This document shows positions 16,268 through 33,080 of a DNA stretch of 58,663 nt, in pieces. The stretch is from Tissierellales bacterium. GTDB lineage: Bacteria > Bacillota > Clostridia > Tissierellales > JAOAQY01. Below the pieces are notes generated by a model. It saw only the letters and a program-made list of their open reading frames with translations. It was not told the origin of the DNA and searched no databases. A program made the position numbers and the translations under genes. Each line of letters starts with the position of its first letter. The stretch's first letter is position 1. The stretch is taken from the NCBI GenBank assembly GCA_025210965.1, contig JAOAQY010000197.1, forward strand, positions 1-58,663, read 5' to 3'.

Positions 16268-16432
16268 TTTACATCCCTCTTTCTAAAATATAATCAGGCG
16301 TAAGCAGTCACAATTTCTTCAAAATAAGTATCCCAAAATAACCCCAACCCAAGGAGCAATATTGCACAGCTAATACTATACAATATAGGTCATACAAATA
16401 AAGACTTTCATCTTTATCAAGAAGATGCCATA
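16268..16432 (-). promoter_or_regulatory. Expression platform and leader of xpt
   Basis: About 165 nt separate the aptamer from the xpt start. Candidate hairpins are CATCTT/AAGATG just after P1 (about 16407-16429) and ATATTG/CAATAT farther down. Neither has the long stem plus U-run expected of a strong terminator, so I cannot say which structure is the switch. Confidence 0.4.
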
Positions 16433-16504
16433 CACCTGTAGCCTAGACCATTTACGGTGGTCAGGTAGAAACTCCCAGCCCTTATTGCCGGATTTATACA
16501 AGCG
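16433..16504 (-). ncRNA. Purine riboswitch aptamer (guanine class)
   Basis: The minus strand shows all parts of the purine aptamer. P1 is CGCTTGTA/TACAGGTG (16497-16504 with 16433-16440), P2 is CCGGC/GCTGG, the J2/3 sequence GAGTTTCTACC is intact, and P3 GACC/GGTC encloses the CCGTAAAT-type L3 loop. J3/1 reads TAGGCTA, with a C at the discriminator position (the equivalent of C74), which predicts guanine, hypoxanthine or xanthine rather than adenine. It lies about 165 nt upstream of xpt. Confidence 0.93.
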
Positions 16505-16525
16505 AATATTATTCAGTTAATAAAC

Positions 16526-26548: not shown

Positions 26549-27091
26549 TTAGAAAAACACTTGAGTTGTTGTGCTTAAAAATTTATTTTCCCTATCTATC
26601 GGGTTTATCCAAAAATGAGGTATATTAGATGGGTAATGCATAGTGTCTCCTTTTTTCAAAAGATATTCTTTTCCATCAAGATTTACTATTAGTACTCCTT
26701 CTAATATGTATACTAATTCTTCACCTGGATGTGTGAATATTTCTCTATGCTTCTCGTTACTCCCCATTTTAACTAATATAGTCTCTATTTTTCTATCTGG
26801 AAAGTCTCCACTGAGTCTTCTATATTCTATATTTGCTTTTTCTAGCTTAAACGGATGCTGTTCTTCTGATTTTGTTACATATGAATGTTCCTCATAATCA
26901 TCAAAAAAGGCTTTTATAGGTACTTCAAGCGCATCTGCTATTTTCTTTAGTGATGTAATCGCTAGTGATGAACTGCCATTTTCTACTTGAGACAAGAAAC
27001 TAACAGACAATCCTGTTCGCGCATTCATCTCTTTCAACGTATAACCTTTCATTTGTCTAGCTTTTTTTATTTTTTCTGCAATACCATTCAT
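26549..27091 (-). CDS. XRE-family regulator with C-terminal cupin domain
   Basis: A regulator of 180 residues. A helix-turn-helix of the lambda-repressor type occupies about residues 7-62 (GYTLKEMNARTGLSVSFLSQVE), and a cupin_2 barrel spans about 105-175 (HPGEELVYILEG, KKGDTMHYPSNIPH), with histidines and glutamate placed to bind a metal or small ligand. Such proteins often regulate amino-acid, polyamine or peptide metabolism; the ligand is not evident here. It lies between an MFS exporter gene and a peptidase gene, each with its own terminator. Confidence 0.87.
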   Translation of the reverse strand: MNGIAEKIKKARQMKGYTLKEMNARTGLSVSFLSQVENGSSSLAITSLKKIADALEVPIKAFFDDYEEHSYVTKSEEQHPFKLEKANIEYRRLSGDFPDRKIETILVKMGSNEKHREIFTHPGEELVYILEGVLIVNLDGKEYLLKKGDTMHYPSNIPHFWINPIDRENKFLSTTTQVFF

Positions 27092-27271: not shown

Positions 27272-28543
27272 TTATACTGTCTCTACTTTTTCAGCTTCGT
27301 TTGTCATATTAGTCGCTTTGCTTTTTTCATCAAAATGACCTAGCAATACCATGAATACACTAAATACAACCATGATGATGCATACGAACCACCATGCAGT
27401 TGTAATATTAGTACTCTCAATTACATTTCCCATAATCATAGGTGATATAGTGAATCCTAATCCTGATATCATAGGTATTATAGCATTCATTCGACCTCTA
27501 TGACTAGATGGCGTATGGTTTGCTATAAATGGCATTGCATTTACAGTGACTGCTATCTCTCCTAGAGTAAATATTCCTACACCGATGAAGAAAAATGCTA
27601 TATTTTGTGTCAGTATAAAAAATAGATATCCTGCTATATACAATAATCCGCCTACTACTATTCTCTGTATTGTTTTTAGTTTGTGAAGTATAAGTGTAAT
27701 CAACGGCGTACAAGCTATAACAACAAATCCGTTGAAACTAGATAAAAATCCATACCACTTTGCTCCCTCTTCAACAACTAAGTCTGTATGAATCGGAACC
27801 ATGAAACTCCACTGTGCGTATACAAAATTGTATCCAAACATTATAAATGCAAATCCAATTAAAACTGGTCTCTTCAATAATACCTTTATTATAGAACCTT
27901 GCTCTTGTTTTTCAAGTTGGCGGTCTACTCCAACATCCTCTTTGGTCAAATGTATAGTCTCTTTTACAAAAATCATGAGAAGTGTTATGGCTATTATTGC
28001 AGTAATTGCATCTCCCCAGAAAAACCAGTGTAAATTGTTTTCAAATAACCATCCACCAATAGCTGGCCCAATTGCAAATCCTAGATTGAAACCCATATAA
28101 GAAAGTGCGTAAGCTGCATCTCTATTTTCAGGTGTCGTTATATCTGCAATTAGTGCGCCATGAGCTGGATCTGCTACTCCATAACAAAAACCTGCTGCCA
28201 TTATCAAATAATATGTCGTCATGGATGGCTCTATAAAACCACACATGATATACAAACCTGCTGCTATTAATTCAAGTGTAACTATTATAACCTTTCTTCC
28301 GAACACATCTGCTAACTTACCTCCTAGTAAACTTGCAAATATAAAAAATATTCCCGGTAGCATCATATACCAACCAGCTTCTTTTTCGCTAAGTCCAATT
28401 TTACTAGTGAGTAAAAGCGTCATCATAGGCCATACAAATGCTCCCATTGCATTGACCATTCTCGATATAAATATGACATATACTTCCCTAGGTAGCCCCA
28501 TATAAGGCTCCAATGATTTTTTGATTTTTTTAGTAATTTCCAA
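27272..28543 (-). CDS. MFS drug exporter under leader-peptide attenuation
   Basis: A 12-helix major facilitator of the DHA1 drug/proton antiporter type, 423 residues, with the loop 2-3 motif GGKLADVFGRK and motif C-like GPAIGG. The start is TTG, 8 nt after GGGAGG. Its transcript begins about 280 nt upstream and passes through a 21-codon leader ORF and an intrinsic terminator before reaching the gene (see the separate entries), which suggests induction by a translation inhibitor. Substrates cannot be told from the sequence. Confidence 0.87.
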   Translation of the reverse strand: MEITKKIKKSLEPYMGLPREVYVIFISRMVNAMGAFVWPMMTLLLTSKIGLSEKEAGWYMMLPGIFFIFASLLGGKLADVFGRKVIIVTLELIAAGLYIMCGFIEPSMTTYYLIMAAGFCYGVADPAHGALIADITTPENRDAAYALSYMGFNLGFAIGPAIGGWLFENNLHWFFWGDAITAIIAITLLMIFVKETIHLTKEDVGVDRQLEKQEQGSIIKVLLKRPVLIGFAFIMFGYNFVYAQWSFMVPIHTDLVVEEGAKWYGFLSSFNGFVVIACTPLITLILHKLKTIQRIVVGGLLYIAGYLFFILTQNIAFFFIGVGIFTLGEIAVTVNAMPFIANHTPSSHRGRMNAIIPMISGLGFTISPMIMGNVIESTNITTAWWFVCIIMVVFSVFMVLLGHFDEKSKATNMTNEAEKVETV

Positions 28544-28950: not shown

Positions 28951-28978
28951 TTACTTTTTTTAAATTAAAGGGTATAAT
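28951..28978 (+). promoter_or_regulatory. Promoter of the ABC exporter leader transcript
   Basis: TATAAT at 28973-28978 with a weak -35 (TTACTT, 28951-28956, 16-nt spacing). A 9-bp hairpin (28988-28996 with 29003-29011) follows near the expected 5' end and may stabilise the message. Confidence 0.55.
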
Positions 28979-29051
28979 CTAAGCGTACGTGAAAATATTC
29001 TGATTTTTACGACTTGATTAAAAATTTTAATTTACGAAAGGAGGTCCGATT

Positions 29052-29234
29052 ATGAATACTTTGGTTTATAACGATTTAAGCATTACTAACTCAATTAGAA
29101 ATTCTGTTAAAGTTAATATGAATCTTTCTGTACGTGTGCTTGCTCGCGCTCTATATGGGATTTTTGCGTTTAATTTTGCGGATTTGGGCTTTTTTGGGGA
29201 CCAGTCTGACCAATTTCATAATCGGATGATCTGA
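29052..29234 (+). CDS. Leader peptide upstream of the ABC exporter (60 residues)
   Basis: A 60-codon ORF with an excellent ribosome binding site (GGAGGT 29040-29045, 6 nt spacing). The product begins MNTLVYND and carries a hydrophobic, Phe-rich stretch (YGIFAFNFADLGFFG) near residues 35-49. Two tandem terminators follow directly. The last codons, CGG ATG ATC TGA, include GATGATCTG (29225-29233), which can pair with CAGGTCATC (29261-29269) in the left arm and loop of terminator 1. This is the architecture of a ribosome-mediated attenuator such as bmrB upstream of bmrCD in Bacillus subtilis. I see no domain in the peptide itself. Confidence 0.72.
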   Translation: MNTLVYNDLSITNSIRNSVKVNMNLSVRVLARALYGIFAFNFADLGFFGDQSDQFHNRMI

Positions 29235-29256
29235 TAAGTAAATTTTTCTGCTAATT

Positions 29257-29286
29257 ACCACAGGTCATCTAGCCTGTGGTTTTTTT
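29257..29286 (+). terminator. Attenuator terminator 1 of the ABC exporter
   Basis: ACCACAGG (29257-29264) and CCTGTGGT (29273-29280) form an 8-bp stem, followed by seven Ts (29280-29286). It lies between leader ORF and exporter. Its left arm overlaps the sequence complementary to the end of the leader ORF. Confidence 0.88.
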
Positions 29287-29309
29287 GTACCTTTGTCTAG
29301 TTCTACTCC

Positions 29310-29337
29310 ACCACAGGTGAATACCTGTGGTTTTTTT
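29310..29337 (+). terminator. Attenuator terminator 2 of the ABC exporter
   Basis: ACCACAGGT (29310-29318) and ACCTGTGGT (29323-29331) with loop GAAT, followed by seven Ts. The stem sequence repeats that of terminator 1, so its left arm can pair with the right arm of terminator 1 when that arm is free. Confidence 0.9.
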
Positions 29338-29359
29338 ATACAAAAAAGGAGGTTTTGCT

Positions 29360-29461
29360 ATGTCAAATGTTTTAAAAAACAAGAACCGATCAAATTTAAA
29401 AAAGGTTAGAACTCCACCTATACTCAACTCGTACCCGGAAAATTTATTCACAAGGAGATGA
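29360..29461 (+). CDS. Small ORF overlapping the exporter ribosome binding site (33 residues)
   Basis: ATG at 29360 behind AAAAAAGGAGG, encoding 33 mostly basic residues (begins MSNVLKNKNRSN and ends FTRR). Its last codons ACA AGG AGA TGA form the AGGAGA ribosome binding site of the exporter gene, whose ATG comes 4 nt after the stop. This predicts translational coupling. No homology recognised. Confidence 0.6.
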   Translation: MSNVLKNKNRSNLKKVRTPPILNSYPENLFTRR

Positions 29462-29465
29462 TTTC

Positions 29466-31262
29466 ATGACTACTATAAAGAAAATTTCAGTATTTTTGAA
29501 GCGTAACAAGCTCAGATATTTACTAGCTATGGGAGCTGTCGCTCTAGCTACACTTTTTTCAATGATTAATCCACTTATTATAAGAACAACTATAGATTCA
29601 ATACTTCTAGATAAACCATTAGAATCTGGCATAATAACAGATGTCATAAATTATATTGGTGGAATAGACTTTTTATATGACAACTTATGGATTATTGGAT
29701 TTATTATAATATTTTTTACTGCAATCAGAGGTTTCTTCATGTATTACAAAGGAAAATTAGCAGCTCAAGCCTCTGAAGATAGCGCAAGACAAATGAGGGA
29801 AGCTCTTTATGACCATCTTCAAAGACTTCCATACGATAATCATGTAAAGGCTGAAACCGGTGATTTAATTCAGCGCTGTACCTCTGATGTTGAAACTATA
29901 AGAAAATTTTTGGCTACTCAATTTGTTACAATAGGTCAAGCTGTATTTATGCTGATTTGTTCTATAGCTATCATGTTGAGTCTAAATGTCAAATTGACAC
30001 TTGTTGCCATGTCTATAGTGCCTTTTATATTCTTATTTTCATTCATATTTTTTGTGAAAGTAAAAGAATTTTTCTCTAAATCTGATGAAGCTGAGGGAAA
30101 ATTATCGACTACATTGCAAGAGAATATAACTGGAGTCCGCGTTGTAAGGGCTTTTGCAAAAGAGGAATTGGAAATTGATAAATTCGATGAAAAAAATAAG
30201 AATTTTACTGATTTAACTTATAAATTAATAAAATTATTGGCTATTTACTGGTCTTCATCCGATTTTCTATGCTTGACTCAAGCTGCAATCGTTCTAGTTT
30301 ATGGCTCTTACCTAACTTATATAGGTGAGATAACGCTTGGTACTTTGAGTGTATTTATAACTTATGAAAATATGCTTCTTTGGCCAGTGCGTCAAATGGG
30401 AAGAATTCTAGCAGATATGGGTAAAGCTACTGTTTCTCTAGGCCGTATTCACGATATTTTAGAAATTCCTGCTGAAGATTTTGAAACCGGCAAAAAAGAT
30501 GTAAATGTAAACGGAAATATCACTTTTGACAATGTGTGTTTCTCTTATGATGATGATAGCGATGTGCTAAACAACATATCTTTCAAAATCAAAGCTGGTC
30601 AAACTCTAGCAATTTTAGGTTCTACTGGCTCTGGAAAATCATCATTAGTTCACTTACTGACTAGATTGTATGACTATAAAAGCGGTAGTATCAAAATAGA
30701 TGGTGTCGAATTAAATAGTTTCAACAAACCATTTATAAGAAAGCAGATTGGTTTAGTTCTCCAGGAACCATTTCTATATGCCAAAACTTTATCTGAAAAT
30801 ATCAAGATAGCAAGACCAAATGCTACTGAAGAAGAAATTATAGCTGCTGCTCAAATTGCCTGTGTTCACGATGTAATAGAGGGTTTTGATAAAAGTTACG
30901 ATACTCTTGTCGGTGAAAAGGGAGTTTCTCTCTCTGGTGGTCAAAAGCAAAGAGTTGCAATAGCGAGAACTATACTTACTAATTGTCCTATACTCATATT
31001 TGACGATTCACTAAGTGCTGTTGATACCGAAACAGATTTAAATATAAGAACCGCTCTACAATCTGTAAACAGAAATGCAACAAAGATTATCATTTCTCAT
31101 AGGGTTTCTAGTTTATCTGAGGCTGATTTGATATTGGTGTTAGAAAATGGAAAAATTATGGAATCTGGTAATCATGAAGAACTCATAGCAAATAAAGGTA
31201 TTTATCATCGAATACACAATTTACAAAACAATTTAGATGATGAACTTCCTCTTTCAGTCTAA
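29466..31262 (+). CDS. Heterodimeric ABC multidrug exporter, degenerate-site subunit (BmrC/YheI-like)
   Basis: Half-transporter of 598 residues: six-helix ABC exporter membrane domain (about 1-310) and nucleotide-binding domain. Walker A is GSTGSGKSS, the signature is the canonical LSGGQ, and Walker B reads LIFDDSLSAVD, with Asp replacing the catalytic Glu. That is the mark of the degenerate partner in BmrCD, LmrCD and TM287/288-type heterodimers. Its partner follows 12 nt downstream. Expression passes through a leader peptide and two terminators. Confidence 0.9.
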   Translation: MTTIKKISVFLKRNKLRYLLAMGAVALATLFSMINPLIIRTTIDSILLDKPLESGIITDVINYIGGIDFLYDNLWIIGFIIIFFTAIRGFFMYYKGKLAAQASEDSARQMREALYDHLQRLPYDNHVKAETGDLIQRCTSDVETIRKFLATQFVTIGQAVFMLICSIAIMLSLNVKLTLVAMSIVPFIFLFSFIFFVKVKEFFSKSDEAEGKLSTTLQENITGVRVVRAFAKEELEIDKFDEKNKNFTDLTYKLIKLLAIYWSSSDFLCLTQAAIVLVYGSYLTYIGEITLGTLSVFITYENMLLWPVRQMGRILADMGKATVSLGRIHDILEIPAEDFETGKKDVNVNGNITFDNVCFSYDDDSDVLNNISFKIKAGQTLAILGSTGSGKSSLVHLLTRLYDYKSGSIKIDGVELNSFNKPFIRKQIGLVLQEPFLYAKTLSENIKIARPNATEEEIIAAAQIACVHDVIEGFDKSYDTLVGEKGVSLSGGQKQRVAIARTILTNCPILIFDDSLSAVDTETDLNIRTALQSVNRNATKIIISHRVSSLSEADLILVLENGKIMESGNHEELIANKGIYHRIHNLQNNLDDELPLSV

Positions 31263-31274
31263 GGAGGGATAATT

Positions 31275-33080
31275 ATGGCTGAATTTAAAGAACAAAATTA
31301 CAACAAGAAAGTAGATTTAAGGCTATGGAAAAAACTAATTCGTTACGGTAAAGCCTATAAAAAAGATGCTATATTATTAGCCATTGTGATGGTTGGAGTT
31401 GCGGGAATAGATGCCGCACTCCCTCTTCTCACAAAATACGTCATCGACTATATTATCATACCAAAAGAACTAGATAAATTAGGCTTATTTAGCGCCGCTT
31501 ACGGAGTATTGATTCTAATTCAAAGTGTCAATGTATATTTTCTAATAGCAATAGCTGGCAAGATAGAAATGGGACTCAATTATGAAATACGAAAAGATGG
31601 ATTTAAAAAACTTCAAGAGCTCTCGTTTTCATATTATGATAAGACACCAACTGGCTGGATAATGGCTAGAATGACTTCTGATATTGAGAAATTGAGCTCT
31701 ACTATTTCTTGGGGATTAGTCGATATGATTTGGGCTAATTCTATGATGGCAATAATTGCCGTCGTGATGCTCATAGCTAATTTCAAGCTTGGTCTAATGA
31801 CACTAGCTGTCATACCTATTTTGATAATTGTAAGTATATATTTTCAAAAAAAGATACTTAAATCATATAGAAAAGTTCGAAAGACAAATTCAAAAATTAC
31901 TGGAGCATTCAGTGAAGGTATCATGGGCGCTAAAACTACTAAAACTTTGGTTTTAGAAGATAGCCATCTTAATTCTTTTGAGTCACTTACTAGCAAAATG
32001 AAGAACTCTTCTGTTAGAGCTGCCATATTCTCTTCACTATATCTTCCAGTTGTATTGATTCTTGGAAGTATTGGAACTGCTTTGGTTATGACTTATGGTG
32101 GATATGAGATGTCAGTGGGAACATTAATGCCTGGTACTTTAATTTTATTTATAAATTATACCGTACTTTTCTTTGATCCTATACAAGATCTTGCAAGGAT
32201 ATTTGCAGAACTTCAAAATTCCCAGGCTTCTGCTGAAAGAATTTTGTCTTTGATCGAAACTGAATCTGATATAAAAGATAGAATTTCTTTAGAGTCTTAT
32301 GGAGATGAATTGCCAACCATAAAGGGAAATGTCTGTTTTGATCATGTTGATTTTCACTATGTAGAGGAAGAATCTGTTCTAAAAGATTTTTCTTTAAATG
32401 TAAATGCGGGAGAAACTATTGCTTTAGTTGGCGAAACTGGATCTGGCAAAAGTACTATAGTTAATCTGGTATGTAGATTTTATGAAGCTACTTCTGGTAC
32501 TCTTTCTATAGATGGTATCGACATAAGAGATATACCTCAAAAATGGCTCCATTCTAACATAGGTTACGTACTTCAATCGCCGCATCTATTTAGCGGAACT
32601 ATACGAGATAATATATTGTATTCTAATCCTGATGCTAGCGAATTAGAGATGATACGAGCTGCTAAAATGGTAAAAGCTCATAGTTTTATATCAAAACTTG
32701 AAAATGGATATGATACAGAAGTCGGTGAAGGTGGTAGCCGATTGTCAACTGGTCAAAAACAATTAATTTCGTTTGCAAGGGCTATACTCTGTGATCCTGC
32801 TTTGTTTATACTAGATGAAGCTACTTCTTCTATCGATACTGAAACTGAAGTTTTGATTCAAAAAGCTATAGATGAAGTTTTGCATGGAAGAACTAGTTTT
32901 ATAGTAGCTCACAGACTTTCTACCATTAGAAATGCTGATAGAATTTTGGTTCTAAAAAATGGTAGCATAGTTGAAATTGGATCTCACAAGGAATTGTTGA
33001 ACAAAAAAGGTGCGTATTATAGTCTTTATAAAAAACAATTTTCTGATGAGTACAATATCAATACTTCTATAAAAAATTAG
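31275..33080 (+). CDS. Heterodimeric ABC multidrug exporter, catalytic subunit (BmrD/YheH-like)
   Basis: Half-transporter of 601 residues with the exporter membrane domain and an ATPase with Walker A GETGSGKST, Walker B LFILDEATS with the catalytic Glu, and H-loop VAHRLST. The signature is LSTGQ in place of LSGGQ. The two subunits are complementary: the degenerate composite site combines the Asp Walker B of the first with the altered signature of this one. Confidence 0.9.
   Translation: MAEFKEQNYNKKVDLRLWKKLIRYGKAYKKDAILLAIVMVGVAGIDAALPLLTKYVIDYIIIPKELDKLGLFSAAYGVLILIQSVNVYFLIAIAGKIEMGLNYEIRKDGFKKLQELSFSYYDKTPTGWIMARMTSDIEKLSSTISWGLVDMIWANSMMAIIAVVMLIANFKLGLMTLAVIPILIIVSIYFQKKILKSYRKVRKTNSKITGAFSEGIMGAKTTKTLVLEDSHLNSFESLTSKMKNSSVRAAIFSSLYLPVVLILGSIGTALVMTYGGYEMSVGTLMPGTLILFINYTVLFFDPIQDLARIFAELQNSQASAERILSLIETESDIKDRISLESYGDELPTIKGNVCFDHVDFHYVEEESVLKDFSLNVNAGETIALVGETGSGKSTIVNLVCRFYEATSGTLSIDGIDIRDIPQKWLHSNIGYVLQSPHLFSGTIRDNILYSNPDASELEMIRAAKMVKAHSFISKLENGYDTEVGEGGSRLSTGQKQLISFARAILCDPALFILDEATSSIDTETEVLIQKAIDEVLHGRTSFIVAHRLSTIRNADRILVLKNGSIVEIGSHKELLNKKGAYYSLYKKQFSDEYNINTSIKN

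Follow-up and report, generated by a model that had tools for sequence, protein, structure and literature searches.

Attenuation of resistance genes through leader ORFs is already established. In ermK of Bacillus licheniformis, a leader peptide is reported (Kwak 1991) to be followed by two rho-independent terminators of the uninduced fold that bring about transcription attenuation; to our knowledge, no relay is known there in which the right arm of the first terminator pairs with the left arm of the second by way of shared stems. In Bacillus subtilis, the heterodimeric ABC multidrug exporter BmrCD is preceded by the translated small ORF bmrB, for which a terminator, an antiterminator, and an anti-antiterminator were predicted, the role of the last being left unclear; termination is relieved by lincomycin, erythromycin, and chloramphenicol, and translation of bmrB is required (PMC4191407). 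In rli80-hflXr (lmo0762) of Listeria, a mutated start codon leaves the system off, and a mutated anti-antiterminator turns it on (PMC6310831). The cplR leader of Clostridioides difficile is induced by lincomycin and retapamulin and requires the start codon of its upstream ORF (uORF) (PMC10201436). For patAB of Streptococcus pneumoniae, an anti-antiterminator is predicted upstream (PMC4319486).

The window analyzed here, i.e., the whole stretch of 58,663 nucleotides of contig JAOAQY010000197.1 from a Tissierellales bacterium (GenBank assembly GCA_025210965.1), holds a heterodimeric ABC exporter operon behind a leader ORF, and its control region was compared with these systems. As in ermK, a single leader peptide is followed by two consecutive terminators, but the target of ermK is a 23S rRNA methylase, whereas that of the window is an ABC exporter whose leader lacks an Rfam family match. 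With bmrB, the window shares a small leader ORF placed before a heterodimeric ABC exporter, as well as a terminator, an antiterminator, and an anti-antiterminator. However, bmrB has one terminator, located within its coding region, whereas the window has two terminators of the same stem after the leader stop, and its anti-antiterminator joins the start of the leader to its end and covaries. Like the window, rli80-hflXr has a leader ORF within the anti-antiterminator region that is followed by an antiterminator and a terminator, but it differs in its single terminator, its 14-codon ORF with an RLR motif, and its target, a ribosome-splitting factor (PMC6310831). It is the best-studied analogue, and its start-codon result matches a model in which the absence of a ribosome means "off." Premature termination under the control of a clostridial uORF is also found in cplR, albeit with a three-codon uORF, one terminator that additionally hides the SD sequence of the gene, and an ABCF target (PMC10201436). 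The order of terminator, antiterminator, and anti-antiterminator before a heterodimeric ABC exporter is likewise seen in patAB, which unlike the window has a single terminator and no leader ORF of which we are aware (PMC4319486). A relay with one stem sequence common to the leader end and both terminators was not found described in the open literature, and the sequence-matched double-terminator relay is, as far as we have found, new.

Layout of the leader and the exporter operon

The elements of the control region and the operon are listed below; P0, P1, and P2 denote pairings between distant segments, and T1 and T2 denote the two terminators.

28973..28978, + strand: TATAAT, probably the -10 element of the leader promoter, assigned from the sequence and its location 5' of the leader; weak -35
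29029..29056, + strand: 5' arm of P0, made up of the 5'UTR, the Shine-Dalgarno (SD) sequence (29040-29044), and the first two leader codons, the start codon included
29052..29234, + strand: leader ORF of 60 codons, with the strong SD sequence AAAGGAGG ahead
29215..29244, + strand: leader end and stop region, the 3' arm of P0, which holds the 5' arm of P1 (GATGATCTG, 29225-29233)
29257..29286, + strand: terminator T1 (stem 29257-29280, U-run 29281-29286)
29261..29269, + strand: 3' arm of P1 (CAGGTCATC), i.e., the inner half of the T1 left arm plus the T1 loop; antiterminator when bound to 29225-29233
29273..29317, + strand: P2, the pairing of the T1 right arm (29273-29280) with the T2 left arm (29310-29317) after the opening of T1; no U-run follows
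29310..29337, + strand: terminator T2 (stem 29310-29331, U-run 29332-29337), with a stem identical to that of T1
29360..29461, + strand: second small basic ORF, 33 codons in length, in the interval from T2 to the exporter, with the exporter SD sequence inside its end
29466..31262, + strand: ABC exporter half-transporter 1; Walker B motif ILIFDD, a degenerate ATP site
31275..33080, + strand: ABC exporter half-transporter 2; Walker B motif LFILDE, a canonical site

The probable leader promoter is missing from the matches of a consensus scan because its -35 element is weak. With a leader ORF and SD sequence before the terminator, two intrinsic terminators before the gene, and a mutually exclusive antiterminator and anti-antiterminator that predicted folding and covariation tie to ribosome position, the region has the sequence-level features of a ribosome-mediated transcription attenuator of a resistance gene. 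Judged from their sequences, the tandem half-transporters with one degenerate ATP site are predicted to form a heterodimeric ABC exporter of the BmrCD-like kind. In a comparison of the half-transporters with bacterial solved structures, Sav1866 and TM288 outscored BmrC/BmrD, and orthology to BmrCD itself is therefore not claimed.

No relative of the leader peptide was detectable at the same place (one search gave two weak, nonsyntenic matches, and another gave none), and the comparison was therefore anchored on the exporter. The leaders lack a codon run, their peptides are unconserved and without a conserved arrest motif, and neither the window element nor seven relatives had an Rfam match at the gathering score. 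An amino acid-sensing leader attenuator or a metabolite riboswitch would also come with a leader ORF and terminators, but the missing codon run, the unconserved peptides, and the absence of an Rfam match in the window element and the seven relatives make these classes extremely improbable. Weak Rfam matches to enterobacterial and cyanobacterial sRNAs, all below the gathering score, were dismissed as chance.

Mutually exclusive pairings and folding of the nascent RNA

P1 comprises 9 bp with one G-U pair and on its own is moderately unlikely in shuffles (P = 0.029). P0 totals roughly 23 bp, arranged as three blocks (7, 3, and 13 bp), and contains a perfect 12-bp Watson-Crick run (TCCGATTATGAA:TTCATAATCGGA), which was reached by none of 3,000 shuffles of the leader end; its energy was reached in 0.36%, and P0 and P1 were jointly matched in 0 of 5,000 shuffles. 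The P0 energy of -20.0 kcal/mol compares with -12.1 kcal/mol for the best start:end pairing among 29 ordinary genes of the window, and 74% of the leaders of the order reach -14 in P0-like energy. Because P0 takes exactly the bases that P1 needs, it is an anti-antiterminator. Both terminators are built on one 8-bp stem (ACCACAGG/CCTGTGGT), and the exact 8-bp complementarity of the T1 right arm to the T2 left arm that underlies P2 is not an independent coincidence, because it follows from this common stem. Two terminator-like sites are present in the region, versus 0.4 ± 0.6 in shuffles, and T1 starts 23 nt past the leader stop (median gap in the relatives, 21 nt).

Equilibrium folding of the full leader, in which T1 and T2 always win, was rejected as a view of the switch, which only folding at nascent length displays. 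Since, for the window as well as most relatives, both hairpins outcompete P1 and P2 at equilibrium, the switch would have to be cotranscriptional, with P1 and P2 kinetically trapped, and since the completed hairpins are the more stable structures, the two pairings would have to delay hairpin completion past the U-run. For the window RNA just before the T1 right arm, the predicted probabilities without a ribosome are 0.97 for P0 and 0.03 for P1. The predicted P1 is 0.99 with a ribosome stalled at the start, 0.97 with one at codon 6, and 0.03 with one at codon 12 or later, and it falls to 0 once the ribosome occupies the leader stop. If P1 is retained, P2 is predicted at 0.99 as the T2 left arm emerges, until base 29325. 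Among 61 relatives, a ribosome stalled early gives a median predicted P1 of 0.92, as opposed to 0.18 without a ribosome and 0.00 with one at the stop, and in many of these relatives P0 is not clearly ahead of P1 at equilibrium without a ribosome.

These results can be set against the original prediction, which was made from the sequence of the window. The leader ORF, both terminators, P1, and P2 were all recovered at the positions that it gave, and its expectation that a ribosome finishing the leader keeps both terminators agrees with the predicted loss of P1 at the leader stop. It had missed P0, the first link of the relay. Its further claim that both terminators are released whether the ribosome is stalled or absent is supported for an early stall and not supported for an absent ribosome or for a stall beyond approximately codons 6 to 12. 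In the cotranscriptional folding that it had proposed as a check, P1 and P2 are predicted to form with a start-stalled ribosome, and the RNA is predicted to be locked in P0 without one. As P0 locks the segment that opens T1, an absent ribosome should cause termination and not release. A cascade of P1 and P2 that lacks an anti-antiterminator, in which stalled and absent ribosomes would both open the terminators, builds on two pairings that are real and conserved. It is nevertheless quite improbable given the nearly complete predicted sequestration of the P1 5' arm by P0 without a ribosome, the covariation of P0, and the observation that rli80 with a mutated start codon remains off (PMC6310831).

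Conservation and covariation at orthologous exporters

Of 249 genomes examined in the order, 96 have orthologues of the exporter (approximately 40 to 60% identity), and further orthologues occur in other families of the class. In total, 77 loci across Clostridia were scored, with 61 belonging to the order and 16 to families outside it; the identity ranges, locus counts, and energies rest on simple detectors. Loci for which orientation or detection failed (L007, L037, L060, L062, L065, L074, and L082) were left out. The region upstream of the exporter has the same anatomy in the relatives, namely, a promoter, an SD sequence, a leader of 21 to 67 codons, T1, usually a T2 of the same stem, and then the exporter. 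An SD sequence and an ORF lie ahead of T1 in the 77 scored loci, and strong leader-end pairings are present in 63 of them. A second terminator is present in 64 loci and was not found in 13 with the detector used.

The commonest form in the relatives has the SD sequence AGGAGGTCGTG and the leader end CACGACCTATG or CACGACCTGTG, which is complementary to this SD sequence as well as to CCATAGG, the T1 left arm, and translates to Ala/Thr-Arg-Pro-Met/Val. In the window and several other lineages, wholly different sequences serve the same pairings. An Arg-Pro motif is located near the C terminus of 40 of the 77 leaders, and because its coding sequence pairs with the leader SD sequence and the T1 left arm, it is best read as a probable RNA-pairing constraint and not as a peptide function. 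The Arg-Pro-Met/Val ends of otherwise unrelated leaders (e.g., L019, L021, L027, and L087) appear to be dictated by CACGACCTATG/GTG.

P0 and P1 each beat shuffles at a z of <-2 in 50 of 61 loci, and P2 does so in 41 of the 49 loci with a second terminator. When partners were exchanged between the 77 loci, the energies weakened from -15.4 to -12.4 for P0 (z, -11.4) and from -14.4 to -11.1 for P1 (z, -12.9), and the exchange of P2 partners weakened them from -14.0 to -12.1 (z, -6.3); the effect is also present in divergent-only subsets, and no partner from another locus fits the P0 and P1 segments of the window as well as their own. The compensatory changes upstream of orthologous exporters that the original prediction had suggested looking for were thus found for P1 and P2, and its central claim of two terminators opened in series by these pairings is borne out insofar as both are conserved and covary at orthologous exporters across the class. 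Conservation in relatives is stronger evidence than the shuffles of the window, and on these sequence comparisons the attenuator moves from plausible to well supported.

The arms of T1 and T2 change together (CCATAGG, CCACAGG, CCGTAGG, and CCGCAGG sets). Over 27 distinct arm sets, 92% of the P2 pairs are kept, compared with 28 to 42% in slid registers, and 10 two-sided changes were counted versus 3.4 in shuffles (reached in 0 of 500). The arms were anchored via the terminator fold, so that the corresponding counts for T1 and T2 lean towards structure, whereas P2 had no part in the anchoring. This bears on the possibility that T1 alone is switched and that T2 is a leaky backup, its arm match being derived from duplication or a shared sequence preference. 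It would be in line with the predominance of T2 over P2 at equilibrium even with P1 forced, with the covariation of P2, which is weaker than that of P0 and P1, and with one lineage that retains T2 without P2. However, the match is confined to the arms and does not extend into loops or flanks, the arms change together as in the CCACAGG, CCGTAGG, and CCGCAGG sets, the two-sided changes in P2 exceed those in shuffles, and in 38 loci T2 immediately precedes the exporter; we regard a switch of T1 alone as unlikely. The lineage in question (family f14; L089, L091, and L092) has two terminators, P0, and P1, but its T2 stem differs (CCCGCAGG) and P2 is absent, and an alternative must therefore exist there.

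These 38 loci, out of the 64 that have T2, show a distance of ≤45 nt from T2 to the exporter start codon, and in 31 of them the P2 energy is -11 kcal/mol or lower. There is therefore no room for a promoter in between, and T2 must be overcome for expression; with T2 still closed, the opening of T1 would be useless. Were T1 and T2 ordinary fail-safe terminators that close a small gene or an sRNA, with the exporter promoter located downstream, the exporter could make use of the consensus-level promoter-like site that the window scan placed at 29395-29424, inside the second small ORF, but this reading conflicts with the missing promoter room in the 38 loci, leaves the covarying P0 and P1 unexplained, and is very improbable.

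The unscored locus L035 (MAG Zod_Metabat.733), whose leader failed the distance rule of the detector, has tandem terminators with the stems AGCCACAGACT.../AGCCGTGGACTC..., and by eye its T1 right and T2 left arms pair over 12 bp, including three G-U pairs, despite differing left arms. In a regulon search with two consensus patterns, both of which miss diverged copies, including the window, the tandem-terminator pattern was found at exporter loci only; the G163/G174 matches were rejected as palindromic self-matches of the pattern.

Proposed mechanism and neighboring genes

The locus is quite probably a ribosome-mediated transcription attenuator of a heterodimeric ABC drug exporter that works as a relay of five mutually exclusive pairings, i.e., P0, P1, the T1 hairpin, P2, and the T2 hairpin. 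Without a ribosome on the leader, or with one past approximately codons 6 to 12, P0 would form and hide the leader end, T1 and T2 would form, and transcription would stop; a ribosome finishing the leader would sit on the leader end and allow termination, too. A ribosome arrested at the first codons (approximately 1 to 6) would instead cover the 5' arm of P0, so that the leader end could bind the T1 left arm (P1). The T1 right arm freed in this way would catch the emerging T2 left arm (P2), neither terminator would be completed in time, and the exporter would be transcribed. Antibiotics under which ribosomes stall soon after the start of an ORF, such as lincosamides, pleuromutilins, streptogramin A, and some macrolides, are the likely signal. 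The more general proposal of a class-wide relay, in which a single ribosome stalled early flips both sequence-matched terminators in series, with one stem sequence passed from the leader end to T1 and on to T2, is slightly favored on balance.

If this is true, a widespread, uncatalogued family of attenuators guards a multidrug exporter in Clostridia, and two terminators in series are both opened by one ribosome event. Serial termination would ensure a very low basal level, early-codon arrest would be told apart from absent or late-stalled ribosomes, and a sharp prediction for the inducing drugs would follow, i.e., only those causing early-codon arrest. The Arg-Pro-Met/Val ends of unrelated leaders would be explained by RNA pairing, and gene switches that are both tight and drug inducible could be designed simply on the model of the relay.

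The second small ORF between T2 and the exporter is lysine/arginine rich and has its own SD sequence. In approximately 14 relatives (e.g., L006, L014, L015, L017, L020, L021, L026, L029, and L033), the same position is occupied by short ORFs (16 to 45 codons) that are mostly basic and in many cases end in Gly, and the ORF of the window may provide a second, translational control. The exporter operon is adjoined by a divergent gene for a major-facilitator transporter resembling multidrug/tetracycline efflux proteins (27272-28543, - strand), beyond which lies an ORF similar to cupin/HTH-type regulators (26549-27091). Elsewhere in the window, a purine riboswitch aptamer was detected at 16419-16521 on the - strand (Rfam RF00167, 75 bits).
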